Source: Sphingopyxis sp. OAS728 (GTDB lineage Bacteria; Pseudomonadota; Alphaproteobacteria; Sphingomonadales; Sphingomonadaceae). Taken from it: DNA of 64,000 bases. The position numbers were made by a program, and so were the translations under genes. Location of the stretch: contig NZ_JADBDT010000001.1 in NCBI RefSeq assembly GCF_014873485.1, positions 3,100,001 through 3,164,000 on the forward strand. Reading direction: 5' to 3'. Below are positions 15,276 to 37,294 of the stretch, one piece after another. Below the pieces are notes generated by a model. That model saw nothing but the letters and a program-made list of their open reading frames with translations. It made no database searches and was not told the origin of the DNA. How positions within the stretch are numbered: the stretch's first letter is position 1; each line of letters starts with the position of its first letter.

Positions 15276-15866
15276 TCGCGAAAACCGAAGAGAAGCCTAG
15301 ACATTCGGCCCGATGCTAATTTGGAGGCCCCCTGAAAAGCCCCCGTCAGTACTGGACTTAAAAGTCCGGAGGTTCGATTCCGGCCACGGAGTTTGCTGAG
15401 CATCTTCGGCCCGCAACTTCTCCTCTAATCGAAAAGATAACCCAGCGCTCTGAGAAGGCCAACGACAAACGAACCGGCAACTACACAGGTCGCGATCCAA
15501 TATTCGATCGCGAGCGCCCTGTCCCGCCATTTCCTCGCTTGCTTTGCCATATGCCGACCATGACACGGCAAAATATTGTAGGAAACCGCCTTCTCGCTCT
15601 GACGTGCGAAATAGGAATTGGTGCCCGGCCCAGTCCCGAAAGGGAAAGGGAGCCCAGAACCGGGCACCCATCGCGCTAGCCTGACGGCTTGCGGCGAATT
15701 CCATCATTTGGCTTCTGATTCAATATCGCGCGGACGCATGGGTTGGTTGCAGAGGCTAAATAGGAGAACGACCGGATCGCGTGGTGGCGCAAAAATGGCG
15801 CTCCCATTTTTTTTCGGGCTGCGCTAATTTCTAACCACAGAACATCTGCAAACGGGGAGTCGCAGG
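15276..15866. other. Gene-poor left end of the integrated element
   Basis: Apart from the tRNA-like scrap, I see no convincing gene here. A leftward frame ending at 15425 could encode a 41-residue protein (start about 15550, MAKQARKWRDR then one hydrophobic helix, VVAGSFVVGLLRALGYLF), but it has no recognised relatives. A poly-T/T-rich run near 15806-15813 precedes the next gene. Confidence 0.4.
15350..15390 (+). other. tRNA 3'-half-like fragment
   Basis: The stretch contains a 5-bp stem with a short loop (TGGAC-TTAAAA-GTCCG) and then a T-loop consensus (GGTTCGATTCCGG). No acceptor or D-arm partner is found upstream, so it is not a working tRNA. It could be an old attachment site or captured tRNA end. 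A copy of AAAGCCCCCG (15336-15345) just before it recurs inverted at 18799-18808 beside the integrase, as integrase arm sites might. Confidence 0.35.
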
Positions 15867-16202
15867 ATGCTTATCGCTTCAATTCTTTTGGCTGCAATGG
15901 CGCCAGCACCGGCTGGCAATGTCGACGCGACGCGAGCCGCCTTCACGAAATGCCTCCGCGAGCATCTCAAGAAGCAGCTTGAGGCCAAAGTGACGGAGGC
16001 GGAATTTGAACTTTCCGTGAAGTCGGCGTGCGATACAGAGCAATCGGCATTTAAGGCAGCCGTTACGGCGACCAATCGGGCGGGCGGCGATTCGCAAGCC
16101 GATGCCGAGGAAAATGCTCAGATGCAGATCGACGACTATCACGCGAACTTCACGGACAAGTTCAAGGATTACGCATCCACCAATACGATGCCGGGTGAAT
16201 GA
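15867..16202 (+). CDS. Small secreted hypothetical protein
   Basis: This 111-residue frame starts with a signal-peptide-like stretch (MLIASILLAAMAPAPAG), then a charged helical domain with two Cys (KCLREHLKKQLEAK and SACDTEQSAFKAA) and ends MPGE. A GGGGAG precedes the ATG. I recall similar short proteins in sphingomonad accessory regions, without known function. The Cys pair may form a disulfide in the periplasm. Confidence 0.65.
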   Translation: MLIASILLAAMAPAPAGNVDATRAAFTKCLREHLKKQLEAKVTEAEFELSVKSACDTEQSAFKAAVTATNRAGGDSQADAEENAQMQIDDYHANFTDKFKDYASTNTMPGE

Positions 16203-16224
16203 GAGTTTCGGAGGAAACGGCGCG

Positions 16225-16584
16225 TCAGTGACGTATTGCCGGCGCGCCTCCTTCGTCCATTAACAGTAACAGCTCACGAAGCTTAAAGCGCAAGCTGGCG
16301 AGCTCGAGCCCAACAGTAGCCTCGCGCCGCCCGGCGGCGATAAGCAGGTGACGCAAAAGTTCGTCCGAATGTCGCATCAGCGCGAGTAGGTGCGATCCAC
16401 TAGGGGCGTGAGTTCCAGCGAGCCAATGTTTCACGCATCGCTCGCTGGCGCCCGTCCATCGCATCAGCGTTTTAACCCCCCGATGGGTCTCTCCGACTTC
16501 CTCCGTGAGCGCGGCTGAAACCAGTTCAGCGAAGGTGATGTCGGCCTGTCGTTGCGGTAAACTCTTGCCCGTTTTCGGCAACAT
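16225..16584 (-). CDS. Small HTH-like protein of the mobile element
   Basis: This 119-residue protein contains a probable helix-turn-helix around residues 35-70 (GVKTLMRWTGASERCVKHWL, then AGTHAPSGSHLLALMRH), and a C-terminal helical part with Leu repeats. It is divergent from the serine recombinase gene, 110 bp away, and so could control it. No characterised family is recognised. The N-terminal KTGKSLPQRQ leader may be partly outside the true start. Confidence 0.6.
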   Translation of the reverse strand: MLPKTGKSLPQRQADITFAELVSAALTEEVGETHRGVKTLMRWTGASERCVKHWLAGTHAPSGSHLLALMRHSDELLRHLLIAAGRREATVGLELASLRFKLRELLLLMDEGGAPAIRH

Positions 16585-16693
16585 CTTACCTCTCCTCGCC
16601 GTCTATACTCACCCCGCGTTGCGTCATCGACTCGTGGGGATCGCATACGGCCGGACCCTGCGAGCCATCCTCTTTAGATTTGGGGCTGGTGAA

Positions 16694-18265
16694 GTGGCAG
16701 AATGGTCCGATCAGTTCCGAAAAGAAGGCGAAACGCTGTCGCCGACGGTTCGCGCTGCCGAATATGTACGGATGTCGACCGATCACCAGCGTTACTCTAC
16801 CGAGAATCAAGGTGAGGCAATCCGGCGGTACGCTGTGGCGCGCGGAATTGAGATCGTTAGGACCTACGCCGACGCCGGAAAGAGCGGATTGAGTATCGAC
16901 GGCCGGGACGCCCTCAAAAAATTGATAGAGGATGTTCAGGCCGGGACAACCGATTTTACGATGGTTTTGGTCTATGATGTCAGTCGCTGGGGCCGGTTCC
17001 AGGATGCTGACGAGAGCGCCTATTACGAATACATCTGTAAGCGGGCAGGGATCGCCGTCGAATATTGCGCGGAGCAGTTCGACAATGACGGCAGCCCGGT
17101 CTCGACGATCGTAAAGGGCGTCAAGCGCGCCATGGCTGGCGAGTATAGTCGCGAGCTATCGGCGAAGGTTTTCGCCGGTCAAGGTAGGCTAATCGAAAAA
17201 GGGTTCCGCCAAGGCGGCGGCGCGGGTTTCGGGCTTCGGCGGACACTTGTCGACGAACAAGGTCACGTGAAGGCCGTGCTGAGGCGCGGAGAGCACAAAA
17301 GCATTCAAACCGATCGCGTTATTCTCACTCTCGGCCCAAGCGAGGAAGTGGAGGTCGTTCGCGATGTCTATCGGGCCTTCGTTCATGAAGGGCAAAGTGA
17401 GGCGCAAATCGCGGACAGGCTGAATCGCCGCGGAATCCGGACCGACCTCGATCGCCCTTGGACTCGGGGCACGGTTCACCAGGTGCTGATCAACGAGAAA
17501 TATGTCGGCGACAATGTCTGGAACCGACAATCCTTCAAGCTCAAGAAGAAGCGCGTTCGAAACGATCCGGGCATCTGGATCCGGGCGGAGGGCGCCTTTG
17601 ATGCGATCGTCGAGCGCGATTTATTCGAAGCTGCACGATCCATTATCGGGGCGCGCTCATTCCGTCTCAGCGACGAAGAAATGCTAGGCGCACTTCGCGA
17701 TCTTTACGAACGCCGGGGACTACTCTCCGGCCTCATCATCGACGAATCCGACGGGATGGCCTCAAGCAGTGCTTATGGGTCAAGGTTCGGGAGCCTGCTG
17801 CAAGCCTACAGCTTAGTGGGTTATCGGCCAGACCACGACTACCGCTACATTGAGATCAACCGAGCCCTTCGACGTCTGCACCCCGATGTGGTGAAAAATG
17901 TTCTGGAGGGTCTGGTCGAGATGGGCAGTGTCGTCGGCCAAGACGAAAAAGGCGAGCGGCTTCTCGTCAACGGCGAGTTCAGCCTGTCCATAGTCATCGC
18001 CCGTTGCACGTCTACGCCGACGGGATTGCTGCGCTGGAAGCCTCGGTTCGACACCGCCCTTCTCCCGGACATCACGATCGTCGTCCGCATGGACCGGATG
18101 AACCGGAGGCCGCTCGATTATTATCTGTTTCCCCGCATCGATCTCGCGGCGCGACGGCTGCGGCTGGCCGAAGACAATGGACTGGGTCTCGATGCCTATC
18201 GGTTCGAGTGTCTCGATTATCTATACCATATCGCGGCTCCGGTGCCGCTGAGCGAGGTCGCATGA
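16694..18265 (+). CDS. Serine recombinase (resolvase/invertase N-domain plus recombinase domain)
   Basis: I use the GTG at 16694 (after GGGGCTGG), giving about 523 residues; the frame upstream lacks homology. The resolvase catalytic domain shows AAEYVRMSTDHQRYSTENQG with the nucleophilic Ser, then YADAGKSGLSIDGRDAL and SRWGRFQDADESAYYEY. The PF07508-type recombinase domain follows (about 175-300, ADRLNRRGIRTDLDRPWTRG, VHQVLINEKYVGDNVWNRQS). The C-terminus is longer than a simple resolvase and lacks an obvious zinc ribbon. Its codon choice is less GC-biased than flanking genes. The stop overlaps the next ATG (ATGA), a known pairing with RepB-like genes. Confidence 0.87.
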   Translation: MAEWSDQFRKEGETLSPTVRAAEYVRMSTDHQRYSTENQGEAIRRYAVARGIEIVRTYADAGKSGLSIDGRDALKKLIEDVQAGTTDFTMVLVYDVSRWGRFQDADESAYYEYICKRAGIAVEYCAEQFDNDGSPVSTIVKGVKRAMAGEYSRELSAKVFAGQGRLIEKGFRQGGGAGFGLRRTLVDEQGHVKAVLRRGEHKSIQTDRVILTLGPSEEVEVVRDVYRAFVHEGQSEAQIADRLNRRGIRTDLDRPWTRGTVHQVLINEKYVGDNVWNRQSFKLKKKRVRNDPGIWIRAEGAFDAIVERDLFEAARSIIGARSFRLSDEEMLGALRDLYERRGLLSGLIIDESDGMASSSAYGSRFGSLLQAYSLVGYRPDHDYRYIEINRALRRLHPDVVKNVLEGLVEMGSVVGQDEKGERLLVNGEFSLSIVIARCTSTPTGLLRWKPRFDTALLPDITIVVRMDRMNRRPLDYYLFPRIDLAARRLRLAEDNGLGLDAYRFECLDYLYHIAAPVPLSEVA

Positions 18266-18501
18266 GCGACGTTTCACGCGCACAGCATATAGAGATGATC
18301 CCGTTATCACGGATCAATGTTCTCAACCCGCGCGGGCGCAACAAGCGCCAGCACCGAGAAATCGTCGACAATATCGAGGCGATCGGTTTGAAACGCGCAA
18401 AAGCCAGCGATGCTTTTCGAGTGTCGCGGGTGCGACACCTTCCTTCTCGCGCTTCGCTATCAACTCTTCGGCCACCGCCGCGAAGCTATTGCCTGCGCTG
18501 A
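18262..18501 (+). pseudogene. Truncated ParB/RepB-type partition protein gene
   Basis: The first 45 or so codons read as the N-terminus of a RepB/ParB-like protein (MSDVSRAQHIEMIPLSRINV, then NPRGRNKRQHREIVDNIEAI), translationally coupled to the serine recombinase. At about 18396 homology stops and the frame continues through antisense integrase sequence to 18501. The ParB core and C-terminal domains are missing, so the gene is broken by a deletion whose other end lies in the convergent integrase gene. Confidence 0.75.
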
Positions 18502-18781
18502 TGCTCGCAGCGATCCGAGCCTGCCGCTTGGCAGTGTTGGGATCGACGGCATGGGCGAGCTGCTTCTTGGCATCATCTCTTGCCGCTCGCGCTTCGGCGA
18601 GCGTAATCGCAGGATAGGCGCCGAGCGCCAGTTTACGCTCCACTCCATGAAGGCGATATTTGACGCGCCAAAGCTTGCTGCCAATCGGATTGACCAAAAG
18701 ATAAAGGCCGCCCGAATCCGAGACCTTATAGGGCTTATCTCTTGGCTTCGCTTTGCGGATCGCGGTGTCGGTCAGCGCCAT
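18397..18781 (-). pseudogene. Truncated tyrosine integrase (P4/DUF4102 type)
   Basis: From ATG 18781 the frame gives the DUF4102 arm-binding domain (MALTDTAIRKAKPRDKPYKV, DSGGLYLLVNPIGSKLWRVK, LALGAYPAITLAEARA) and the start of the SAM-like core-binding domain (AKREKEGVAPATLEKHRWLL). It then breaks off near 18397. The catalytic domain with the R-H-R-Y residues is absent. Its position, next to the tRNA-Gly 3' end and reading away from it, is the standard place for the integrase of a tRNA-targeted island. Confidence 0.87.
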
Positions 18782-18946
18782 TTGGGGGCCTCGCAAATCG
18801 GGGGCTTTGGAAAGGCCCCCGGATATGCCCCCGAATCATCCAGCTACGTGCGATCATGGGCATTCACCGGAAGCCAGTGAATGCTCAAAAAACAGCGGAT
18901 TTTCAGGTATTTTTCAACCATCAGCGGCTGCGCGTGGGCAGCAAGA

Positions 18947-18969
18947 TGGAGCGGGTGAAGGGAATCGAA
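18947..18969. repeat. Right attachment-site repeat (att core, 23 bp)
   Basis: Identical to 15250-15272. On the minus strand it is the 3' end of tRNA-Gly(CCC), covering the T-stem end, acceptor strand and CCA. This is the copy that keeps the tRNA intact. Confidence 0.9.
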
Positions 18970-19020
18970 CCCTCGTCGTAAGCTTGGGAAGCTTCTGCTC
19001 TACCATTGAGCTACACCCGC
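18947..19020 (-). tRNA. tRNA-Gly (anticodon CCC)
   Basis: Read on the minus strand from 19020, the sequence folds into a full cloverleaf: acceptor GCGGGTG, D-stem GCTC/GAGC, anticodon loop TTCCCAA on stem GAAGC/GCTTA, T-arm AGGGTTCGATTCCCT and encoded CCA. The outermost anticodon-stem pair is a G-A mismatch. The anticodon read as CCC gives glycine. It is the target of the integrated element. Confidence 0.92.
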
Positions 19021-25458: not shown

Positions 25459-26886
25459 ATGATGACGCACGCTGGAAAGGAGCGCGGCGCTCGGCCATGG
25501 GCGGCGTTTGCTGCCCTGATGCTGCTCGTCCTTGCCATCGCGGCGTTTATCTTCGCTCCCCCCGCCCGCTCGCAGGGCGAAAGCGGCGCGCGCTATACCG
25601 GCGTCGCCTCGTGCGCGGGCTCGACCTGCCACGGCCGGATGGAGGGCGACGGCACCGTCGTACGCCAGGACGAGCTGATGAAATGGCAGGAGCCCTCGAC
25701 CCCGGGCGGCGCGCACAGCCGCGCCTGGGCGGTACTCAACAACAATCGCAGCCAGTTCATCGCGCGCAATCTCGGCATCGGCGATCCGTCGAAGGCGCAG
25801 ATGTGCCTTGGCTGTCACAGCACCGCGGGTACCGCGCACGCGGTTCCGGCCGAGGATGGCGTCGGCTGCGAATCCTGCCACGGCCCCGCGGGCGGCTGGC
25901 TTGCGAGCCACTATGCCGGGGTTGGAACCAACGCCGATCCCGACCGGGAAATGCGCGACAAGCATCTCGCCAACTTGTCGGCAGGGCTGAAGAAGCTCGA
26001 GGATCCGGTCGTGCGCGCCGGGGTGTGCGTCGACTGCCATTTCGGCGCGGCCGCCGACGGCCAGTTCGTCACCCACCGCATCATGGCTGCCGGCCACCCG
26101 CGCATTTCGTTCGAGCTCGATCTCTTCTCGTCGCTGCAGGCGCATCATCAGGAAGACGCCGATTACGGCTGGCGCAAGTTCGGCGCCGCGAACCGCCGCA
26201 CCGACCATGTCCAGATGTGGGCGGTGGGGCAGGCGACGGCGATCGAACGCAGCCTCGCGCTGTTCCAGACGCGGCGCGGGACCGAGGGCATGTTCCCCGA
26301 ATTCTATTTCCTCGATTGCCACAGTTGCCATCGCCGCATCTTCGATCAGGCAAAGCCGGTGCGCACCGGGCTCGACAATCCGGGCCGTAATCTTCCCGAG
26401 GGCATGCCCGCCTATAATGACGAAAATCTGATCATGCTCGCCGCCGCTGCGCGGCTGGCCGCCCCCGCGCTGGCCGACCAACTCGCGGTGCGTACAGCGG
26501 CCTTCCACAAGGCGATGGCGACCGACCGGCAAAGCGCGGTCGCCGCCGCGGCGCAGCTGTCGCAGACCGTCGCGGCGCTCAAGAGCGCGTTCGCGTCGCG
26601 CAGCTTTTCGGGCGCCGACGCCTTCGCGATGGTCGACGCGATCTCGGCCAAGGCGATCAGCGACCGTTACACCGACTATTCGGGGTCGCAGCAGGCGGTG
26701 ATGGGGGTCGACACTTTGCTTAATGCGATGGTGTCGTCGGGGCGCGTAACCGTCGGCGCCGCGGCGGGCATCCGCGGCGACATCGACCGCGCCTATGCCG
26801 CGGTGAAGGACCCCAACGCCTATAAGCCCTCGGAATTCCAGGCGTCATTCGGCAGCGCAGTGCGCGCAATCGGGGCGCTGCGGTAA
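25459..26886 (+). CDS. Multiheme cytochrome c, small member of the electron-conduit operon
   Basis: Start chosen at ATG 25459 (after GGAAAAGGGG), giving 475 residues. A signal anchor lies at about 15-38 (ALMLLVLAIAAFIFAPPARS). Haem motifs: CAGSTCH at 52-58 (a rare CX4CH form), CLGCH 116-120, CESCH 137-141, CVDCH 190-194 and CHSCH 287-291. Additional His residues around 225-260 can serve as distal ligands. It resembles the cytochrome c554-like multihaem group, a periplasmic electron carrier. It is the first gene of the packed operon; only 4 bp separate it from the next. Confidence 0.87.
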   Translation: MMTHAGKERGARPWAAFAALMLLVLAIAAFIFAPPARSQGESGARYTGVASCAGSTCHGRMEGDGTVVRQDELMKWQEPSTPGGAHSRAWAVLNNNRSQFIARNLGIGDPSKAQMCLGCHSTAGTAHAVPAEDGVGCESCHGPAGGWLASHYAGVGTNADPDREMRDKHLANLSAGLKKLEDPVVRAGVCVDCHFGAAADGQFVTHRIMAAGHPRISFELDLFSSLQAHHQEDADYGWRKFGAANRRTDHVQMWAVGQATAIERSLALFQTRRGTEGMFPEFYFLDCHSCHRRIFDQAKPVRTGLDNPGRNLPEGMPAYNDENLIMLAAAARLAAPALADQLAVRTAAFHKAMATDRQSAVAAAAQLSQTVAALKSAFASRSFSGADAFAMVDAISAKAISDRYTDYSGSQQAVMGVDTLLNAMVSSGRVTVGAAAGIRGDIDRAYAAVKDPNAYKPSEFQASFGSAVRAIGALR

Positions 26887-26890
26887 GACC

Positions 26891-28861
26891 ATGCAAAGCA
26901 GAACGCATCTTTTCCGTTCGGCCGCCTTCGCTGCGATGGGCGCCTTGCTGCTCACCTCGTGCGGCGGGGGCGGCGGAGGTGGCGGCACGCCGACGCCGAC
27001 ACCCACGCCGACGCCAACTCCCACGCCAACGACGGTCTACACCCCGCCCGCCGCCGAAGCGCTCACAACCGCCGACGTCGAACGCGTCCTGGCGCAGGCG
27101 ATATCCGAAGCGCAGGCGCGCAGCCTGCCGTCGGTGATCGCGGTGACCGACCGTGTCGGCAACGTGCTCGGCGTCTTCCGCATGAACGGCGCGCGCGCGA
27201 CGGCGACGACCTCGGCCGCACCGAACGGCGTCAATATCGACGCGCAGAATGTGACCTTTCCCGCCGAGGGCGGCGCGATCGCGAAAGCGGTGACCGGCGC
27301 CTACCTGTCGAGCGGCGGCAACGCCTTTTCGACGCGCACCGCGAGCCAGATCGTGCAGGAACATTTCCCGCCCGCGCCGACGACCGTCGGCCTCGAAAGC
27401 GGGCCTCTGTTCGGCGTGCAGTTCAGCCAGTTGCCGTGCAGCGACCTATCGGCGCGTTTCGGGGCGCCGGGCGCGGCGGCGCTGATCGGCCCCAAACGCT
27501 CGCCGCTCGGCCTCGCCGCCGATCCGGGCGGGCTACCGCTCTACAAGAATGGCGTGCTCGTCGGCGGCATCGGCGTGATGGGCGATGGCGTCTATGGCAG
27601 CGATCCGAACATCCTCGACATCGACAATGACCCCGAGGAGTTCATCGCACTAGCGGGTACGCGCGGGTTTGAGGCGCCGAGCACGATCACCGCCGACAAG
27701 ATCACCGTCGACGGGACGTCGCTGCGCTTTTCCGATGCGACCTTTGCGGGCGTGATGTCGAGCGGCGGCGCAAGTTTCGCGAGCCTCAACGGCACCGCGG
27801 GCAATCTCGTCGCCGTCATCGGCTATGCCAATGCCGCGGTCACCGCAGGAATTGCCTATGGTAGCGAAGCTTCGGGCATCCGTGCCTCGACGCCGGCCGA
27901 ATTTTCGAACCGCGACGCGTTCGTCCTCACCGACGGCAGCGGCGCCAACCGTTACCCGCTCCGCGCGGGCACCGACGGCGCGACAAACAGCGCGCCCCTG
28001 ACACAGGCCGAGGCGCGCGCGGTGCTGGAGGAAGCCTTCACGGTGATGAGCCGCGCGCGCGCGCAAATCCGCCGCCCGCTCGACAGCCGCGCGCAGGTGA
28101 CGATCAGCATCGTCGACACGCATGGCGCGGTGCTCGGCATCGTGCGCTCGCCCGACGCGCCGATCTTCGGCACCGACGTGAGTTTGCAAAAGGCGCGCAC
28201 CGCCGCTTTCTTTTCGGGTGCGCAGGCGGGAACCGAACTCAGCGCCAATGCCAGCGCCGATGTTCGCCAGTTCGTCACTGCGACGCGGACATTTTTGAAC
28301 AATCCCGCCGCACTGACCGGCACCATCGCCTTTTCGGATCGCGCGAACGGCAATCTGTCGCGCCCCTATTTTCCCGACGGCGAGGTTGGTCGTCCGCAGG
28401 GTCCGCTGTCGCGCCCGATCGCGCAGTTCAATCCCTTCTCGACCGGGCTGCAATCGGCGCTGATCATCGGCAATCTCGGCGCGCATCTGGGCTTCGTCTC
28501 GGGCGCCAGCCCCACCGACACGCCCGCGCGCTGCACGACCTTGCCCGACGTTGCGGCGGGGCAGAACCGGCTCCAGAACGGCATCCAGATTTTCCCCGGA
28601 TCGGTCCCCATCTATCGCGGCAACCAGCTGGTCGGCGCGATCGGCGTGTCGGGCGACGGCATCGATCAGGACGACATGATCAGCTTCCTCGGCGCACATA
28701 ATGGGGGCGCCCGCGTCGGCGGCATCGGCAATGCGCCAAAGGCGATCCGGTCGGACAATGTCGTCGTCAATGTCGGTGCCGGGGTTCGCCTCCGCTATAT
28801 CAGCTGTCCCTTCGCCCCGTTCCTCGACACGGCGAACCAGAATGTCTGCGACGGGCTATAG
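26891..28861 (+). CDS. Lipoprotein with two GlcG/HbpS-like (DUF336) domains
   Basis: A 656-residue lipoprotein precursor: lipobox LLLTSC (Cys24), a Gly8 run, a (TP)n linker about residues 34-50, then two haem-degrading/haem-binding GlcG-like domains. The first covers about 60-235 (LTTADVERVLAQAISEAQAR, YKNGVLVGGIGVMGDGVYG) and the second about 370-640 (LTQAEARAVLEEAFTVMSRA, YRGNQLVGAIGVSGDGIDQD). GlcG/HbpS proteins bind haem or corrinoid, so this could supply, hold or sense haem for the cytochromes encoded on both sides. Function is inference. Cys residues near 179, 539 and 641-654 are extra features. Confidence 0.77.
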   Translation: MQSRTHLFRSAAFAAMGALLLTSCGGGGGGGGTPTPTPTPTPTPTPTTVYTPPAAEALTTADVERVLAQAISEAQARSLPSVIAVTDRVGNVLGVFRMNGARATATTSAAPNGVNIDAQNVTFPAEGGAIAKAVTGAYLSSGGNAFSTRTASQIVQEHFPPAPTTVGLESGPLFGVQFSQLPCSDLSARFGAPGAAALIGPKRSPLGLAADPGGLPLYKNGVLVGGIGVMGDGVYGSDPNILDIDNDPEEFIALAGTRGFEAPSTITADKITVDGTSLRFSDATFAGVMSSGGASFASLNGTAGNLVAVIGYANAAVTAGIAYGSEASGIRASTPAEFSNRDAFVLTDGSGANRYPLRAGTDGATNSAPLTQAEARAVLEEAFTVMSRARAQIRRPLDSRAQVTISIVDTHGAVLGIVRSPDAPIFGTDVSLQKARTAAFFSGAQAGTELSANASADVRQFVTATRTFLNNPAALTGTIAFSDRANGNLSRPYFPDGEVGRPQGPLSRPIAQFNPFSTGLQSALIIGNLGAHLGFVSGASPTDTPARCTTLPDVAAGQNRLQNGIQIFPGSVPIYRGNQLVGAIGVSGDGIDQDDMISFLGAHNGGARVGGIGNAPKAIRSDNVVVNVGAGVRLRYISCPFAPFLDTANQNVCDGL

Positions 28862-28864
28862 GCG

Positions 28865-30796
28865 ATGATGACGGGGGGCAGCCTTTGGCCGATCATCGCG
28901 ACACTCGCGGCGCAGGGCGCGCCGGGAGCCGATGTCACGCCGCCGCCACCCGCGCCCGAGGGACCGCCGGTCGCCGGCGACGCCGCACCCGCCGAGCAGC
29001 CTGCCGAAGAACTGATCCCGCCCCCGCCGCCGGTCGACTGGCAGGAAATGGTCAAGGACGACCTCGTCACCGACCTCATCGAGGGCCGCCGCCGTCCGGG
29101 CTACCGGCCCGATCTTCCCGACGCGCTTAGCCAGGACAATGTCGGCGCGCTGCGCCCGCCGCCGCCGCAGGCCTTTCCGGGGATGGAGGATCAGCTGCCC
29201 GTTCCCGACCGCTGGCGCCTCATCGAAACATTGGGCGTGGTCAAGGAACGCTGGTTCGATCCCTATCACCAGAACACCTACAAGGGCGACCGCGCGATCG
29301 ACCGCAGCAAGGTCAAATGGCTGCCGATCAAGGGCGACGACTGGTTCTTCGTCGCCAATGCCGTGTCCGACACCGTGTTCGAACCGCGCACCTTCCCGAT
29401 CCCCGTCGGCGTCCAGACGACCGAGCGGCCCGGCAGCCTCGACGTGTTCGGCAAGGATCGCAGCTTCGTCTTTGCGCAGACCTTCATCGCCGGCGCCGCG
29501 CTGATCAAGGGCTCGACCGCGTTCAAGCCGCCCGACCTCGAATATCGCGTCACGCTCGCTTATCAGGCCAATTATGTCGACGTGCCCGAACGGCGCGTGC
29601 TCGACGTGCGCCCGTCGAAGGCGAGCCATCGTTACGACTCGTTCCTCGGCGTGCAGGAGTTGTTCGTCGACAAACATCTTGGCAACACGTCGGACCGCTA
29701 CGATTTTTATTCAGTCCGTGTCGGGATTCAGCCGTTCCAGAGCGATTTCCGTGGTTTCCTGTTCAACGACAGCCAGCTCGGCATCCGCCTGTTCGGCAAC
29801 CGCGACAACAACCGCTTCCAATATAATCTCGCGGCCTTCTGGCGGCTGGAAAAGGACACCAATTCGGGTCTCAACGACATCACCCAGACGCCGCGCAGCG
29901 ACTTCATCTTCACCGGCAATCTCTATCGTCAGGATTTCCCGGTCGTCGGGCTGACCAGCCAGATCAGCGTGACGTACAATATGAACCGCGAAAAGAATGA
30001 CGTGCAGATCGACCATAATGGTTTCCCAGTGCGGCCCGCGCTGCTCGGCGATTTGCGCGGGCGCGAATATGATGTCGTTTATCTCGGTTACAGCGCCGAC
30101 GGGCGGATCGGGCGGTTCAACCTCACCGCGAGTTTCTATGCCGCGCTCGGCGAGGACCGGAACAGCTTCTTCACCAGCAAGAAAGCTGAAATTCGCGCGG
30201 GCTTCGGCGCGGTGGAACTGAGCTACGACCACGACTGGATGCGCTTCCGCCTGTCGGGGCTTTATGCGACCGGCGACGGCGATCCGTATAATAACACCGA
30301 GGGCGGCTTCGACGCGATCTTCGAAAATCCGATCTTCGGCGGCGCCGACACCAGCTACTGGATCCGCCAGACGATTCCCTTCGCGGGCGGCGGGCGCGTC
30401 ATTTCGATCAACGGCCGCAATGGCATTTTGAACTCGCTGCGCTCGTCGAAGGAAGAGGGGCAGTCGAACTTTAACAACCCTGGCACCGTCTTCATCGGCG
30501 CCGGCGCCGATTTCGACCTGACCCCCGAATTCCGCGTCAGCACCAATTTCAACCATCTGTGGTTCGAAAACACCTCCAGCCTGCAGGCGCTGCGCACCGA
30601 AGGGTCGATCCCGAAGGATATCGGTTTCGATCTGTCGGTCGCGACGATCTGGCGTCCGAAAGCGACGCAGAACATCGTCGGACGCCTCAGCGCGGCGGTG
30701 CTGCTTCCCGGCAAGGGCTTCAAGGATCTGTTCGACAACAAGAAGAAGAATGACGCTTACGTATCTATCCTCGCCAACGTGACTTTGAGCTTCTGA
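28865..30796 (+). CDS. Probable outer-membrane beta-barrel of the cytochrome operon
   Basis: A 643-residue protein with a short signal-like N-terminus, a Pro-rich periplasmic leader (about 20-60, including ELIPPPPPVDW), then from about 150 on alternating polar/hydrophobic segments typical of beta-strands (DLEYRVTLAYQANYV, RFNLTASFYAALGEDRNSF, MRFRLSGLYATGDGDPYNN). It ends with the outer-membrane signature Phe (NVTLSF). It is placed between c-cytochrome genes, and its stop overlaps the next start (TGATG), as a porin partner would be. It is not MtrB by any motif I can see; family not recognised. Confidence 0.72.
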   Translation: MMTGGSLWPIIATLAAQGAPGADVTPPPPAPEGPPVAGDAAPAEQPAEELIPPPPPVDWQEMVKDDLVTDLIEGRRRPGYRPDLPDALSQDNVGALRPPPPQAFPGMEDQLPVPDRWRLIETLGVVKERWFDPYHQNTYKGDRAIDRSKVKWLPIKGDDWFFVANAVSDTVFEPRTFPIPVGVQTTERPGSLDVFGKDRSFVFAQTFIAGAALIKGSTAFKPPDLEYRVTLAYQANYVDVPERRVLDVRPSKASHRYDSFLGVQELFVDKHLGNTSDRYDFYSVRVGIQPFQSDFRGFLFNDSQLGIRLFGNRDNNRFQYNLAAFWRLEKDTNSGLNDITQTPRSDFIFTGNLYRQDFPVVGLTSQISVTYNMNREKNDVQIDHNGFPVRPALLGDLRGREYDVVYLGYSADGRIGRFNLTASFYAALGEDRNSFFTSKKAEIRAGFGAVELSYDHDWMRFRLSGLYATGDGDPYNNTEGGFDAIFENPIFGGADTSYWIRQTIPFAGGGRVISINGRNGILNSLRSSKEEGQSNFNNPGTVFIGAGADFDLTPEFRVSTNFNHLWFENTSSLQALRTEGSIPKDIGFDLSVATIWRPKATQNIVGRLSAAVLLPGKGFKDLFDNKKKNDAYVSILANVTLSF

Positions 30797-33700
30797 TGTT
30801 GCTGCGCAAACTCTTCGCCCTGCTCGCTTTCGTCACGATGTGCGCCGCCTTCGGCGCGAGCGTCGTGCGCGCGGCAGAGGAAGAGAAGCCGCTCAAGATC
30901 GAATATCGCTTCACCCCGCCCGCGCCGCGCGAGCAGAGCGACGCCGATGTAAGCGCGAAGTCGGAGGGCTGTTACAGCTGCCACACGCGTACCGACCAGC
31001 CGTCGATGCATGCGACCCCGGCGGTGAAGCTCGGCTGCACCGACTGCCACGGCGGCGACGCGAGCCAGCGCGGCACGCCCAGCCTCGGCTACAAGCATCC
31101 TACGAACAAGGCGGTGATGAAGCTCGCGCACCCGCAGCCGACCTTGCCCGGCGCCTGGCACGACAGCTCGGCGAACCCGCAGCGCAGCTATACCTTGCTC
31201 AACAAGGAATCGCCCGAATTCATCCGTTTCGTGAACCCCAGCGACTATCGCGTCGCGCGCGAAGCATGCGGTGCTTGCCACCTCGAGGTGATCGAGGCGA
31301 CCGAGCGGTCGATGATGTCGACCGGCGCGATGCTGTGGGGCGGCGCGGCGTATAACAACGGCATTGTCCCCTATAAGAATTACATCTTCGGCGAAGCCTA
31401 TACGCGCACCGGCGAACCGGCGTGCATCCTCTCACCCTCGTCGCGGCTGACCGCCGAGGAATATAAGGAAGCGTGCAAGCCGAGCTTCGGTTTCGACAAG
31501 ATATTGACCGACGACGAGAAAAAGCGCGGCGCGCTGGCCAAAATGTATCCGCTGCCGCGCTGGAGCGTGTTGCCGCCGGGCGACGTGTTCCGCGTGTTCG
31601 AGCGCGGCGGGCGCAACATCAACACGCAATTCCCCGAAATCGGCTTGCCGAACCCGACGGGCAGCATCCAGCGGCTCGAGGAACCGGGGCGTCCCGACCT
31701 CAAGCAGTCGAACCGTGGCCCCGGGACGGGGCTGCGCGTCTCGATCCCCGTGCTCAACATCCACAAGACGCGCCTCAACGACCCGCTGTCGTGGTTCATG
31801 GGGACGAACGACCAGCCGGGCGACTATCGCCATTCAGGCTGTTCGGGCTGCCATGTCGTCTACGCCAACGATCGCGAGCCGCGGCACAGCCTGACCTATG
31901 CCAAATATGGCCGTGACGGCGAGACGGCGACGGTCGACCCGACGATCGCGGAGAAGAAGTGGAAACCCGACGGCGGGCATGGCGGCGATAGCCATGGCGC
32001 CGAGGATGGGCATGCCGGTGGCGGCCACGGTGCGCTGATCGACCCCGCCGATCCCGACGTTCCGGCACGCCCCGCATCGCCGGCGCGGGGCGAATCGGGC
32101 CACCCGATCAGCCACGCCTTCACCCGCGCGATCCCGACCTCGCAGTGCATGTCGTGCCACATGCACCAGCCGAATATCTTCCTGAACTCCTACCTCGGCT
32201 ACACGATGTGGGACTATGAATCCGACGCGCCGCAGATGTGGCCGGGGCCGGACAACACCGCGCCGCGCCCCCCGGGGATGAGCGACGAGGAGTATCAGAA
32301 GAAATACAAGCAGCAGCGCTATCCGACCGCCGCCGAGGTGCATCAGGTACTCGAACGCAATCCCGAGGGGGCGGCGACGCGCGGCCTGTGGGCCGACGTC
32401 GAGTTCCTGCGCGACGTCTATGACGTCAACGACAGCAACAAGGACACGCAGTTCGCCGACTATCATGGCCATGGCTGGAACTTCCGCGGCATCTTCAAGC
32501 GCGACCGCAGCGGCAATCTGCTGACCGCCGACGGCAATATGTCGACCTATGGCACCGACACCGCGAACATCATCGATCCGAAAGATCCGGAGAAGTGGCG
32601 CAAGAGCTGCAGCCACTACACCGATCCCAAGGAGCGCGATCTCTGCCTGTCGAGCGCCGATCCGGGCCGGCCGGGGGGCGAAGGCAAGTTCGTGCCGCCG
32701 GGTCTCAACCCCGGCAAGGCGGTCCATATGATGGATATCCATGCGGAAAAGGGCATGCAATGCGCCGACTGCCACTTCGCGCAGGACAGCCATGGCAACG
32801 GCTATATCCAGGGCGAGGTCGCGAACGCGGTCGAGATCAGCTGCAAGGATTGCCACGGCACTGCCGATGCCTTCCCGAACCTGCTCACCTCGAACGTCGC
32901 GGCGCGGCCGCAGGGCAATAATCTTGCGTTGCTGCGCAATCCTGACGGGCGGCGCCGCTTCGAATTCCAGTATAATGACGATGCCGAGGTGATCGGCCTG
33001 ATCCAGCGGTCGATCGTCGATCCGAAACTTGAATGGCAGGTCAGCCTCGTCAAGCAGGCGGTGACCCCGGGGCCGCACTTCAACGCCAAGGCGGCGCGCG
33101 CGAAACTGATGGCGCGCGCGGGCGCCGAGGACGGCAAATATGAATGGGGGCCGGGGGTCGCGAAGGAGGACCGCGCGCACGGCGACGACAAGATGACCTG
33201 CTTCACCTGTCACCTGTCATGGACGACGAGCTGCGGTGGTTGCCATTTGCCGATCGAGGCGAACTGGAAAACCAAGATGCACCATTTCGAGGGTGAGGAG
33301 ACGCGCAACTTCGCGACCTACAACCCGCAGGTCGCGCGCGACGAGATGTTCCAGCTCGGCCGGCACCAGCTCACCAAGCCCGGCGAGCCGGGCCCGAACG
33401 GCGAAGCGCGCGGCATCATCACGCCGGTGCGTTCGACCTCGGCACTCGTGCTGTCGTCGACGAACATCAACCGCGAACGCATCTATGTGCAGCAGCCGCC
33501 GGTGTCTTCGGCGGGCTATTCGAGCCAGGCCTTCGCGCCGCACTTCCCGCACACGGTGCGCCGGTCCGAAACCAAACAGTGCAGCGACTGCCACCTGTCG
33601 GCCGCCGACGATAACAATGCGATCATGGCGCAGCTCAATCTGCTCGGCACCAATTTCGTCAATTTTGTCGGGCTCAACGTCTGGTCGGGTCAGGAAAACA

Positions 33701-35085
33701 GCTTCCAGGCGACGCGCGTAACCGAATGGGACGAACCGCAGGCGGTGATCGGCAGTTATCTCCAGAAATATGCCTATCCCGACTATTGGAAACTGCACGT
33801 CGAACAGAATGGCCGCGAGCTCAAGAATTGGGTGCGCGGCAAGACCTTCGACAAGAAACTATCGGGCGAAACCCACGCGCTCGAAGAATTCGCCAACATC
33901 GTTCAGGGGACGAGCGGCCGCGTGAACTGTCTCCAGCAGCGCGGCGAATATATGTTTGTAGCGGAGGGCAAGGGCGGTTTCCGCGTCTATGACGTTGCCT
34001 CGATCGGCAACAAGGGCTTCTCCGAACGCATCATCCGCGCGCCTTTCTCGGCGCTCGGCCACGATACGCATGTGAAAACGAAGAACGCGACCTGCATGGC
34101 GATCGCGACGACGCAGCCGATCAGCGTGTCGCGCAACGAGAATATCGTGAAGAATTTCCCTGAGAACCACGAACAGGTGATGCACGATATCTATCGCTAT
34201 GCGGTGATCACCGACAGCGTCGAAGGTCTCATCCTCGTCGATATCGATACGCTCGCCGACGGCGAATTCCGCAACAACAAGTTCAAACGCGCGCTGACGT
34301 GGAACGAGGGTAATGTGCTGGCGGGCGCGCGGCACATCACGCTCGCGGGCAGCATGGCCTATATCACCACCGATGCGGGGCTCGTGGTGCTCGACCTCTC
34401 GGCACCGCTCCAGCCCAGGGTCACCGCGCAACTGCCGCTGACCGATGCGCGCGCGAGCGCGGTGCAGTTCCGCTACCTCTGGGTCACCGATGCCGAGGGT
34501 GTGAAGCTGTTCGACGTCACCAATCTGGCGCATCCGGTCGCGGTACCGTCGGGCACGGTTCGGCTGGCCAACGCGCGGAAAATCTATCTCGCGCGCACCT
34601 ATATGTACGTCGCGGCGAAGGCGGACGGCCTCGTGATCGTCGATGTGACGCGCCCCGCGGCACCGATCGTCTGGCCGGGTCTGACCTTTGGCGGAATGCT
34701 CAACGACGCCGAGGATGTCATCGTCGCGTCGACCAATGCGTCGCTGTTCGGTTATGTCGCCGACGGGCGGAACGGCATCAAGGTGCTCCAGCTCACCAGC
34801 CCCGACAATCCGGGCCTCTATGGCTTCTCGCCGAAACCGACCCCCGAACTGATCGCTTGGGCGAAGACGCCGTCACCCGCGCTTGCGCTGTCGAAGGGGC
34901 TCGACCGCGACCGTGCGGTCGACGAAACCGGCGGCCAGATGGCGGTGTTCGGGCGTGTCGGCTCGCGGCCGTTCACCCGGCCCGAAATGGAGAGGCTGTT
35001 CCTGAACAGCAAGGGCGTGGTCTACAAGGTCAGCGACGAGGTCGACCAGAATGCTTGGCGGCCGCCGCTTCTCTACGCGAACTGA
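30796..35085 (+). CDS. Giant decahaem cytochrome c with C-terminal LVIVD-type beta-propeller
   Basis: 1429 residues with a signal peptide (LLRKLFALLAFVTMCAAFGA). Ten CXXCH haem motifs have their first Cys at residues 59, 81, 158, 349, 451, 656, 683, 802, 813 and 929. A His/Gly-rich insert lies near 395-415 (GGHGGDSHGAEDGHAGGGHG). From about 1030 to 1350 the protein is haem-free and contains LVIVD-like repeats (GLVVLDLSAPLQPRV, GLVIVDVTRPAAPIVW, GIKVLQLTSPDNPGLY), a surface beta-propeller. It is coupled to the barrel gene by a TGATG overlap. It may carry electrons to or from an extracellular partner; direction and substrate are unknown. Confidence 0.87.
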   Translation: MLLRKLFALLAFVTMCAAFGASVVRAAEEEKPLKIEYRFTPPAPREQSDADVSAKSEGCYSCHTRTDQPSMHATPAVKLGCTDCHGGDASQRGTPSLGYKHPTNKAVMKLAHPQPTLPGAWHDSSANPQRSYTLLNKESPEFIRFVNPSDYRVAREACGACHLEVIEATERSMMSTGAMLWGGAAYNNGIVPYKNYIFGEAYTRTGEPACILSPSSRLTAEEYKEACKPSFGFDKILTDDEKKRGALAKMYPLPRWSVLPPGDVFRVFERGGRNINTQFPEIGLPNPTGSIQRLEEPGRPDLKQSNRGPGTGLRVSIPVLNIHKTRLNDPLSWFMGTNDQPGDYRHSGCSGCHVVYANDREPRHSLTYAKYGRDGETATVDPTIAEKKWKPDGGHGGDSHGAEDGHAGGGHGALIDPADPDVPARPASPARGESGHPISHAFTRAIPTSQCMSCHMHQPNIFLNSYLGYTMWDYESDAPQMWPGPDNTAPRPPGMSDEEYQKKYKQQRYPTAAEVHQVLERNPEGAATRGLWADVEFLRDVYDVNDSNKDTQFADYHGHGWNFRGIFKRDRSGNLLTADGNMSTYGTDTANIIDPKDPEKWRKSCSHYTDPKERDLCLSSADPGRPGGEGKFVPPGLNPGKAVHMMDIHAEKGMQCADCHFAQDSHGNGYIQGEVANAVEISCKDCHGTADAFPNLLTSNVAARPQGNNLALLRNPDGRRRFEFQYNDDAEVIGLIQRSIVDPKLEWQVSLVKQAVTPGPHFNAKAARAKLMARAGAEDGKYEWGPGVAKEDRAHGDDKMTCFTCHLSWTTSCGGCHLPIEANWKTKMHHFEGEETRNFATYNPQVARDEMFQLGRHQLTKPGEPGPNGEARGIITPVRSTSALVLSSTNINRERIYVQQPPVSSAGYSSQAFAPHFPHTVRRSETKQCSDCHLSAADDNNAIMAQLNLLGTNFVNFVGLNVWSGQENSFQATRVTEWDEPQAVIGSYLQKYAYPDYWKLHVEQNGRELKNWVRGKTFDKKLSGETHALEEFANIVQGTSGRVNCLQQRGEYMFVAEGKGGFRVYDVASIGNKGFSERIIRAPFSALGHDTHVKTKNATCMAIATTQPISVSRNENIVKNFPENHEQVMHDIYRYAVITDSVEGLILVDIDTLADGEFRNNKFKRALTWNEGNVLAGARHITLAGSMAYITTDAGLVVLDLSAPLQPRVTAQLPLTDARASAVQFRYLWVTDAEGVKLFDVTNLAHPVAVPSGTVRLANARKIYLARTYMYVAAKADGLVIVDVTRPAAPIVWPGLTFGGMLNDAEDVIVASTNASLFGYVADGRNGIKVLQLTSPDNPGLYGFSPKPTPELIAWAKTPSPALALSKGLDRDRAVDETGGQMAVFGRVGSRPFTRPEMERLFLNSKGVVYKVSDEVDQNAWRPPLLYAN

Positions 35086-35088
35086 AGC

Positions 35089-37182
35089 CTACTGCCGCTC
35101 GGCCTGCACCACCGTGTCGGATGCGCGCAGCGCCGACAATATACGCATCACATGCTGGACGTCGCGCACCTCGACGACGACGTCATAGGTGTGGAATCCG
35201 CCCTCGCGGTTCGATAGCCGCAAATTGGTGATATTCGCCGAATTGGCGGCGAGGATGCCTGACATTTCGGCGAGCGTGCCGGGTTCGTTTAGGATGACGA
35301 TGCACAGCCGGGCGTTTCCGCCCTCGCTGTCTTCCTGCCAGCGCAGGTCGATCCAGTCGGCGTCGATGCCGTCGGCGAGCCGCGGACAGTCGATGACATG
35401 CACCTCGATCCCCTCGCCCGGTCGCGACAGGCCGACGATGCGGTCACCGGGGACGGGGTGGCAGCAATCGGCAAGCTGATAGGCAACGCCCGGGGTCAGC
35501 CCGGCGATCGACACCGCCGCGCCCTGTACGAGCTTGCCGGGCTTGGTCTTCATTTCGGCGGTGATGCCGGGGACCAGCGCCTCGAGCAGCGCATTGTCGG
35601 TGATCCGCTGCTTGGCGATCGCGACATAGAGCGCCGTGTCGTCATCGAGCTTCAGCCGCGTCAGCGCGGCGGCGCGCGCCTTGTCGCCGACCTTGTTTGG
35701 CAGGCGAAGCGCGATCTCGTCGTACATCTTGCGGCCGAGCGCCGCGAGTTCGACCTTTTCCTTCGACCGCACATGGCGGCGGATCGCGGCGCGTGCCTTG
35801 CCGGTGACCGCAAAGCCCAGCCAGGCCGGCTGCGGCGTCTGCTTGTCGGAGGAGAGGATCTCGACCGTATCGCCATTGTTGAGCTGCGTGCGCAGCGGCA
35901 CGAGCCGCCCGTTGACCTTGGCGCCGACGGTGCGGTCGCCGAGCCCGGTGTGGACGGCGTAAGCGAAATCGACCGGAGTCGCGCCTTTCGGAAGCTGGTG
36001 CAGGCTGCCTTTCGGCGTGAAGGCGAAGATGCGGTCCTGATACATCGCGATGCGCGTGTTTTCGAGGAACTCCTCGGGATCGTGCGTCTGTTCGAGGATT
36101 TCGATGAGGTCGCGGATCCACCCCGCCTGCCCGTCGGGCGCACTGCCGCCCTGCTTGTACGCCCAATGCGCGGCGAGGCCGAACTCGGACTGCTGGTGCA
36201 TACCCAGACTGCGGATCTGGATCTCGATGCGCATATTCTGCTGGTGCATGATCGTCGTGTGCAGCGACTTGTACCCGTTGCGCTTCGGGGTCGAGATATA
36301 ATCCTTGAACCGGCCGGGGACCATCTTCCACTTGCGGTGGAGGATGCCGAGCGCCGCATAGCAATCGGCGTCGGTCGGCGTGATGATGCGAAAGGCGATG
36401 ATGTCGGTCACCTGTTCGAAGCTGACGTGCCGCTCCTGCATCTTGCGCCAGATCGAATAGGGATGCTTTTCGCGCCCCGACACATCGGCCTCGATCCCGT
36501 TCTTCGCGAGCAATTCCTTGAACTCGCGGCTGATGCCGGCGACCTTGTCCTTGCCGCCGGCGGTCAGCTTGGCGAGGCGCCCGGTGATCGTCGCATAGGC
36601 CTCGGGCTCGAGCTCGCTGAACGCGAGTAACTGCATCTCGCGCATATATTCATACATGCCGATCCGCTCGGCGAGCGGCGCATAGATATCCATCGTCTCC
36701 TTGGCGATGCGGCGGCGCTTCTCCGGATTCTTGATGAAGTGCAGCGTGCGCATATTGTGCAGCCGGTCGGCGAGCTTGACGAGCAGCACGCGGATATCGT
36801 CCGACATGGCGAGCAGGAATTTGCGCAGATTCTCGGCCGCGCGTTCATTCTCGGTCTGCGCCTCGATCTTGGAAAGCTTGGTCACGCCATCGACCAGCCG
36901 GCCGACGTCGCTGCCGAACAGCCGCTCGATTTCTTCGGGCGTCGTCAGCGTGTCTTCGAGCGTGTCGTGGAGCAATGCGGTGACGATCGTCTCGCTGTCG
37001 AGGTGAAGATCGGTCAAAATTCCCGCAACCTCGACCGGATGGCTGAAATAGGGGTCGCCCGACGCGCGTTTCTGGCTGCCGTGCTTCTGCACGGTGAACA
37101 CATAGGCGCGATTGAGCAGCGCCTCGTCGACGTCGGGATCATAAGCGCGCACGCGCTCGACAAGTTCATATTGTCTCAGCAT
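35089..37182 (-). CDS. rsh: Bifunctional (p)ppGpp synthetase/hydrolase (RelA/SpoT homologue)
   Basis: From ATG 37182 (MLRQYELVERVRAYDP) about 697 residues. The HD hydrolase domain is intact (YFSHPVEVAGILTDL, TALLHDTLEDT), so is the synthetase (RFKDYISTPKRNGYKSLHTT), followed by TGS (FAFTPKGSLHQLPKGATPVD) and a C-terminal ACT domain. Alphaproteobacteria usually have one such Rsh controlling the stringent response. A frame start at 37191 is a TTG and less likely. It ends 4 bp from the convergent cytochrome gene stop. Confidence 0.94.
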   Translation of the reverse strand: MLRQYELVERVRAYDPDVDEALLNRAYVFTVQKHGSQKRASGDPYFSHPVEVAGILTDLHLDSETIVTALLHDTLEDTLTTPEEIERLFGSDVGRLVDGVTKLSKIEAQTENERAAENLRKFLLAMSDDIRVLLVKLADRLHNMRTLHFIKNPEKRRRIAKETMDIYAPLAERIGMYEYMREMQLLAFSELEPEAYATITGRLAKLTAGGKDKVAGISREFKELLAKNGIEADVSGREKHPYSIWRKMQERHVSFEQVTDIIAFRIITPTDADCYAALGILHRKWKMVPGRFKDYISTPKRNGYKSLHTTIMHQQNMRIEIQIRSLGMHQQSEFGLAAHWAYKQGGSAPDGQAGWIRDLIEILEQTHDPEEFLENTRIAMYQDRIFAFTPKGSLHQLPKGATPVDFAYAVHTGLGDRTVGAKVNGRLVPLRTQLNNGDTVEILSSDKQTPQPAWLGFAVTGKARAAIRRHVRSKEKVELAALGRKMYDEIALRLPNKVGDKARAAALTRLKLDDDTALYVAIAKQRITDNALLEALVPGITAEMKTKPGKLVQGAAVSIAGLTPGVAYQLADCCHPVPGDRIVGLSRPGEGIEVHVIDCPRLADGIDADWIDLRWQEDSEGGNARLCIVILNEPGTLAEMSGILAANSANITNLRLSNREGGFHTYDVVVEVRDVQHVMRILSALRASDTVVQAERQ

Positions 37183-37294
37183 TGCGTCCAATGTCGTTCA
37201 TGCAGGCAATATTGCAATGCGAAATTTGCTTGCGCCGAACCGCGGGCGTTGAGCAACTTTGATAACAACGGTTGGAAGCATCGTTCGCCGAGAA

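Follow-up and report, generated by a model that had tools for sequence, protein, structure and literature searches.

In a 64,000-nucleotide stretch of the genome of Sphingopyxis sp. OAS728 (contig NZ_JADBDT010000001.1, positions 3,100,001 to 3,164,000; hereafter the window), a four-gene operon encodes a pentahaem cytochrome (A), an HbpS/GlcG-like lipoprotein (B), a predicted outer-membrane barrel (C) and a decahaem cytochrome with a propeller (D). We propose, with a probability of roughly 0.58, that this operon provides the outer-membrane half of a seven-component electron conduit through the cell envelope, in which electrons would more likely flow outward than inward. A conduit is the most economical reading of the four genes, and the other half would consist of a flavoprotein, a cytochrome b and a second decahaem cytochrome with an FHA-like domain. 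An earlier note on this DNA had taken the four genes by themselves for an outer-membrane conduit or respiratory complex. The conduit idea is supported by the barrel model and by the co-occurrence of the genes in relatives, but the four-gene unit appears to make up no more than one half of the system, with inner-membrane partners that lie elsewhere in this genome and adjoin it in most relatives.

The four genes and their products

The four forward-strand open reading frames (ORFs) were confirmed and are tightly packed, and the gaps of 4 nt between A and B, 3 nt between B and C and -1 nt between C and D agree exactly, by coordinates and junctions, with those first read from this DNA; the original descriptions of the four products were likewise borne out by motif counts, Pfam matches and a model of C. 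The pattern is not a chance one, since the haem-motif counts are invariant in complete relatives and B, C and D keep their order and strand. Counts of distinct relatives are those after removal of identical copies, whereas the rows used for His and Cys conservation (71, 90 and 97) keep such copies; motif counts leave out ORFs truncated by a contig end, and many of the locus proteins carry a start codon chosen by script.

Gene A matches the Pfam family Cytochrome_C554 (E 3.4e-9), and its set of four CXXCH motifs and one CX4CH motif is kept in all 67 distinct complete relatives. Besides the five motif His, exactly five others are invariant (71 rows), which we count in favour of the conduit. The start codon is at 25459 or 25462, with an in-frame upstream ATG at 25381 falling within the preceding gene, and the signal sequence was called by eye from a hydrophobic stretch at 10-38. 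Around C, gene A is recognisable in 17 of 30 loci from the host's class.

Gene D matches LVIVD (PF08309, E 7.2e-12) and Cytochrome_C7 (E 4e-6), and ten CXXCH motifs are found in 89 of 89 distinct complete relatives. A further 13 His beyond those of the motifs are invariant (97 rows), so that ten distal haem ligands are available. The propeller is present in an AlphaFold2 (AF2) model of a relative's shortened D, built from 58 of the 97 D rows (predicted local-distance difference test score 74.5, predicted template-modelling score 0.80), and as modelled it is probably seven-bladed; in its repeats and its modelled propeller D resembles the LVIVD repeat proteins. The fold matches of D are dominated by the propeller and hardly probe the haem-bearing part, for which no family is claimed, and a sequence-profile search found no relative of D among solved structures. 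D has an ordinary signal sequence, as judged by eye, and no lipobox. Its haem motifs give a local match to ExtM, a cytochrome of a selenite/tellurite operon (NF040943, E 3.6e-19), and an assignment of D as ExtM was rejected at 68.5 bits against a cut-off of 800.

Gene C encodes no Cys and ends in Phe. The model, computed from 28 of the 30 complete C rows at hand (L032 and L040 excluded), is a beta-barrel of 18 strands, so that the barrel-like protein noticed earlier is predicted to be an outer-membrane barrel and not a soluble protein. Its best fold match is the alginate exporter AlgE, at 13-14% identity across the structural alignment; C shares the barrel fold with AlgE and differs in having D as its neighbour. 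The 50 best structural matches include AlgE and OprD-type porins, and MtrB-type chains are absent among them, although absence from such a list excludes nothing. Up to E 1, neither Pfam nor NCBIfam has a family for C, a profile miss that does not exclude very distant kin, and C has no relative among solved structures by sequence profile; a Pfam search with 28 relatives returned Alginate_exp in four of them, one weak match and nothing else, and the named records of C examined all read "hypothetical". Just before the barrel, residues of about 78-150 (window 29100-29330) are strongly conserved and poorly predicted in the model, with the N-terminal consensus PVPDRWRLxExLGVxxxWWDPYNQNTLKGDRP; this stretch is a possible plug or docking segment.

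Gene B has the lipobox LTSC and matches the HbpS-like family PF03928 in four stretches (E 1.4e-23), a domain that it has in common with the haem-degrading HbpS, and its closest solved structure by sequence is 6bws (EfgA, GlcG type; E 3.4e-7). Cys 183, 548, 639 and 653 are invariant, whereas no His is conserved at 90% or more in the 90 rows compared, which argues against a conserved His ligand to haem. Therefore, B is not an obvious haem carrier. Directly before B, 12 of the 80 loci of the genome scan described below encode a protein of about 150 aa without a Pfam match (e.g. L047:12915-13367 and its relatives).

Proposed inner-membrane partner genes

Clustering of the neighbours of C yielded three further frequent genes, encoding the flavoprotein, the cytochrome b and the FHA-like cytochrome. 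The flavoprotein, of about 800 aa, combines an NAD(P)H/FAD-type oxidoreductase domain with two cyclic-nucleotide-binding domains and 4Fe-4S domains, and along the own chain the closest matches are successively to a YpdA-type reductase, to PKG/PKA-type kinase regulatory domains and to a formate-hydrogenlyase ferredoxin subunit. Sixteen Cys lie within the last 190 residues in the own copy and in 74 of 74 relatives, which by their number would be enough for four 4Fe-4S clusters, and the own copy, whose gene adjoins that of the cytochrome b, matches PF13247 (E 8e-10).

The cytochrome b partner is a membrane protein of about 290 aa (alignment of 19 of 22 rows) with HX13H twice and SGXXG or TGXXG in all 66 distinct relatives, and with the extended WX3HX13H twice in 65 of them; the own copy has W99-H103-H117, SG140-144 and W267-H271-H285. 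The HX13H pairs on two helices are a likeness to ferric reductases and NADPH oxidases (NOX), from which the partner differs as a separate small protein whose Pfam matches are weak and all below the cut-off (Ni_hydr_CYTB at 5.3e-4 and, in a second run, at 0.0098; Ferric_reduct at 0.032). The FHA-like cytochrome, of about 580 aa, owes its name to its N-terminus and has a single membrane helix and ten CXXCH motifs (77/77 distinct relatives), with the hydrophobic segment lying ahead of the haems in 74 of the 77. In the own genome the three genes stand side by side at C1:3,874,284-3,879,545.

A PP2C-type phosphatase gene occurs in 12 of 92 clustered loci, all 12 from the genome-scan set (e.g. L141:7869-8822), and a separate cluster of FHA-looking proteins occurs in nine loci. 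Phospho-control through the FHA-like domain would fit the phosphatase, which concerns only part of the group; a search for a Ser/Thr kinase beside the gammaproteobacterial PP2C gene found its motif in one locus only, and that locus lacks PP2C.

Linkage and distribution

The co-occurrence of the four genes in relatives, one of the points on which the first reading of this DNA turned, was found across families. Among the 30 loci around C in genomes of the host's class (28 other genomes), B, C and D have the same order and strand in 26, and the other four loci are truncated at contig ends. A genome scan with an alignment of 21 of 25 D rows gave 595 matching stretches, at least 586 of which encode a D relative, and the best 80 of 586 loci were kept; because the ranking used a non-sphingomonad D, these 80 favour its kin. 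They share eight records with the class loci, and C stands beside D in 78 of the 80. Of these 80, 36 extend for 8.5 kb or more on either side of D, and in this linkage subset all seven genes are found in 24, six in 11 and only B, C and D in one, the three inner-membrane genes being present in 35. In the commonest arrangement, seen in 13 of the subset, the genes run in the order flavoprotein, cytochrome b, FHA-like cytochrome, B, C, D and A.

Complete D genes from 72 scan loci come from Gammaproteobacteria (35), Alphaproteobacteria (19), Betaproteobacteria (14), Pseudomonadota without a class (2), Vicinamibacteria (1) and a bin titled Marinimicrobia (1). The D tree is clustered by class, yet it requires seven changes where the minimum is three, so that some transfer or mislabelled bins are possible. 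A single draw of 385 class genomes contained 30 with C (including the marginal G307, E 8.7e-4 over 47 residues), 29 with D and 36 with the flavoprotein; every one of the D genomes, the own one included, also carries C and the flavoprotein. A separate draw from the phylum had C in 6 of 299 genomes, three of which overlap the class draw (the own genome, G145 and G244). Within the host family C is patchy, with four genomes carrying it and at least nine lacking it; two other genera of the family have both gene sets a few kb apart (L031, and G244 with the flavoprotein at C1:115,973-118,387 and D at 123,291-127,388), and another Sphingopyxis genome (L075) has the four genes with the inner-membrane genes absent from the surrounding 20 kb. 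Raw genome-wide CXXCH counts were uninformative (112/107 vs 85/77 in controls).

Of the seven flavoprotein genomes without D, three (L159, L160 and L163) combine the inner-membrane genes and A with a cytochrome of five CXXCH motifs (604-641 aa) and a haem-free exported protein (524-535 aa), which has no Pfam match in any of the three and ends in Phe in L163. Two others (L158 and L162) have the inner-membrane genes and A with no outer module within 20 kb, L157 stops inside the B gene at a contig end, and L161 has the flavoprotein alone. These sets bear on an alternative without any extracellular conduit, in which C would be a channel importing or exporting a soluble compound, and D would serve in the periplasm as an oxidoreductase or as a store of electrons that the inner-membrane module supplies. 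Such roles would suit the fold of C, which is that of the alginate exporter and of OprD-type solute channels, the plain signal sequence of D without a lipobox, and the three invariant His that D has beyond the need for distal ligands. However, the exchange seen in three genomes of both the multihaem cytochrome and the haem-free exported protein for others is a modular swap, more readily understood for a conduit than for a protein pair with one substrate, and type II secretion genes neighbour some of the loci; we consider the alternative rather improbable.

Relation to known electron conduits

PCC4, a hypothetical porin-cytochrome cluster, is in its published main text composed of a porin and of periplasmic cytochromes whose haem sites number 4, 5 and 10, together with an inner-membrane protein that has two WX3HX13H motifs and SGXXG and was likened by the authors to ferric reductase/NOX, and, in subgroup II, an Fe-S protein of pfam13247; it was found in iron oxidisers, and the published model has electrons entering the cell and reaching quinone (He et al., 2017; PMC5566968). 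The own cytochrome b has both WX3HX13H motifs and the SGXXG, A (four CXXCH motifs, plus CX4CH) and the FHA-like cytochrome (ten CXXCH) match the cytochromes of 4 and 10 motifs, and PF13247 in the own flavoprotein next to the cytochrome b matches subgroup II. The cytochromes of 4, 5 and 10 CXXCH in L159, L160 and L163 also fit the list, if the haem-free protein is the porin. Since the inner-membrane set has these features, the window system shares the PCC4 engine and has another outer-membrane module, in which B, the AlgE-like C and the decahaem-propeller D replace the five-haem cytochrome and the porin, a comparison made with the published description of PCC4 and not with its sequences themselves.

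In BLAST comparisons, neither C against the candidate porin of L163 (P0121; best E 0.91) nor D against the five-haem cytochrome of L163 (best E 0.025) was significant, and a search of the own genome for a second outer module, with the five-haem cytochrome P0122 as query and without a control, found nothing; the window operon has no such cytochrome either. Of 7995 scored database proteins, 2695 resemble P0122; the link of P0122 to the published PCC4 is one of gene content, because the names from the protein search tie to no PCC4 organism. The terms LVIVD, alginate, cyclic nucleotide, forkhead and Sphingo are absent from the main text of PMC5566968, and no recognised account of this combination of genes was found in the literature searched, a search thin on subscription journals. 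Judged by its genes, the operon system appears to be a new variant of the hypothetical PCC4 kind of conduit, common in proteobacteria, with PCC4 as its closest described relative.

With MtrCAB, MtoAB and PioAB the system shares, as a general idea, a barrel and multihaem cytochromes that span the outer membrane, and it differs from them in its AlgE-like barrel and its other inner-membrane entry. Could the operon be a canonical MtrCAB/PioAB that has drifted past recognition? The barrel and multihaem cytochromes do share one operon, and the unlinked FHA-like cytochrome makes the nearest approach to an Mtr model (PF22113, the MtrC/MtrF domain, at 28.4 bits for a cut-off of 30; D scores 12.9 bits). 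However, the absence of Mtr motifs read earlier from the letters was confirmed, in that no Mtr, DmsE or OmcA model is over its cut-off for any of the four products, and membership in MtrCAB/PioAB was rejected. A scores 13.8 bits with TIGR03508 (MtrA/DmsE-type, cut-off 192.2) and 13.9 bits with TIGR03507 (OmcA/MtrC, cut-off 209.3), and D is listed for neither; the NCBIfam models were run on the window products and not on the FHA-like cytochrome. The best match of the barrel is AlgE, and electrons would enter by a flavoprotein and a cytochrome b where a quinol oxidase of the CymA type would be expected, so we regard such drift as extremely improbable.

Proposed electron route and its direction

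We infer a single chain, in which electrons would pass from NAD(P)H to the flavin of the cytoplasmic oxidoreductase, then through four 4Fe-4S clusters to two b haems across the inner membrane, from these to the membrane-anchored periplasmic decahaem cytochrome with its cytoplasmic FHA-like domain, and on to the pentahaem A and the decahaem D. D would work at the outer membrane with the barrel C and the lipoprotein B and would meet an external acceptor there, perhaps via its propeller, while control from the cytoplasmic side would be exerted by the FHA-like domain and the two cyclic-nucleotide domains, acting as gates. The outer membrane could be crossed in two ways, either by export of D through type II secretion or by contact between D and A through or beside C. 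The export of D is plausible, since GspE-like and GspG genes occur in the loci and a GspD gene lies near the own inner-membrane operon, at 20.8 kb; GspE-like genes were found in the fetched stretches of 15 of 114 loci (12 without three repeats), and Pfam T2SSE/F/G matches were confirmed on examples. Surface cytochromes of Shewanella use type II secretion. The presence of CcmB is also counted in favour of the conduit.

The NAD(P)H/cytochrome b layout speaks for outward flow, and so do the named isolates among the relatives, which are mostly aerobic organotrophs. Alternatively, the same conduit may run inward, with D, or a mineral or electrode touching it, accepting electrons from a donor outside the cell, for example Fe(II) or Mn(II), the cytochrome b passing them to the quinone pool and the flavoprotein making NAD(P)H. 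PCC4, with the same inner-membrane gene set, its occurrence in iron oxidisers and its inward model in the main text (PMC5566968), speaks for this direction, as does one relative (L101), a Haliea bin titled Biocath. Against it, the outward ferric reductases and NOX are likewise laid out with two HX13H motifs in a cytochrome b and an NAD(P)H flavoprotein part next to it, a motif comparison also drawn in that main text (PMC5566968). The named isolates, Steroidobacter, Parahaliea, Duganella, Limnobacter and Pseudoteredinibacter among them, are not known metal oxidisers. We consider inward flow unlikely.

Several points weigh against the outward conduit. GspE-like proteins also serve type IV pili, and GspG was found in only five distinct loci. 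The MtrB barrel has 26 strands, and C, with 18 strands and an AlgE-like fold, is narrower, so that it points to no known electron route over the outer membrane; as modelled, C lends no support to an MtrAB-style plug. The lipobox of B was detected in only 36 of 83 relatives, and one uncut locus (L109) has no B. The strict cyclic-nucleotide pattern occurs twice in the own flavoprotein, whereas of its 74 relatives three have it twice, 48 have one copy and 23 lack it, so that not all members of the group may bind cyclic nucleotides. Support for the FHA label is weak, the own copy scoring 15.5 bits against the Pfam cut-off of 20.7 and that of L048 giving no match at E 0.1. D is missing from 7 of the 36 flavoprotein genomes, and in this genus the two halves lie 739 kb apart. 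Direction itself is not readable from sequence, and the PCC4 model in the published main text is an inward one (PMC5566968).

Genomic context and coordinates

The coordinates of the features are collected in Table 1. The flanks, named by eye, look unrelated to the operon: a glutamate-type dehydrogenase ORF ends upstream at 25409, and a RelA/SpoT-like ORF follows at 35089-37191 on the opposite strand. Scans for promoters and terminators gave nothing above chance level, and repeats inside the operon are unremarkable. Elsewhere in the window, positions 15700-19020 have a lower GC content (0.578 at 16-18 kb) and contain a recombinase-like ORF (16505-18265), an N-terminal integrase-like fragment (18323-18796) and an adjoining tRNA-Gly (18947-19020), all named by eye; this segment looks like an island remnant.

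Table 1. Positions of the operon genes, of the parts of D and of the related gene sets in other genomes (window positions unless a locus is given)
Feature	Position	Strand	Basis or remark
A, exported pentahaem cytochrome c, c554-like, 475 aa	25459..26886	+	4 CXXCH and 1 CX4CH; Pfam
B, lipoprotein with repeated HbpS/GlcG-like domains, 656 aa	26891..28861	+	Lipobox; Pfam; haem motif absent
C, predicted 18-strand outer-membrane beta-barrel, AlgE-like fold, 643 aa	28865..30796	+	Model; conserved N-terminal stretch precedes the barrel
D, exported decahaem cytochrome c, LVIVD beta-propeller at the C-terminus, 1429 aa	30796..35085	+	10 CXXCH; Pfam; AF2
Haem-bearing part of D, residues 59-933 (first to last CXXCH)	30970..33594	+	Motif positions
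Propeller part of D, approximate	33742..34908	+	Model residues 756-1144, mapped via conserved Cys 1045 and 1100
PCC4-like sets	L159:14419-19165; L160:1347-6309; L163:1347-6461		Same inner-membrane engine

Significance

On a wider scale, one may picture a widespread system, mostly of aerobic proteobacteria, that would vent electrons of NAD(P)H to the outside without the quinone pool, that cyclic nucleotides and FHA-read phosphorylation would switch, and that would carry an exchangeable outer module (B-C-D or a PCC4-type set) on a constant inner-membrane engine; in this full form the picture is tentative, and we hold it doubtful. If the conduit is true, extracellular electron exchange would not be confined to metal respirers, because alpha-, beta- and gammaproteobacteria would encode a conserved conduit whose haem counts do not vary, including 29 of the 385 sampled class genomes. 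Its carriers probably number hundreds of species, many of them ordinary aerobes such as Sphingopyxis. The system would then offer an entry point in the cytoplasm that is under regulation and an outer module that can be exchanged, both of which would be open to gene deletion.

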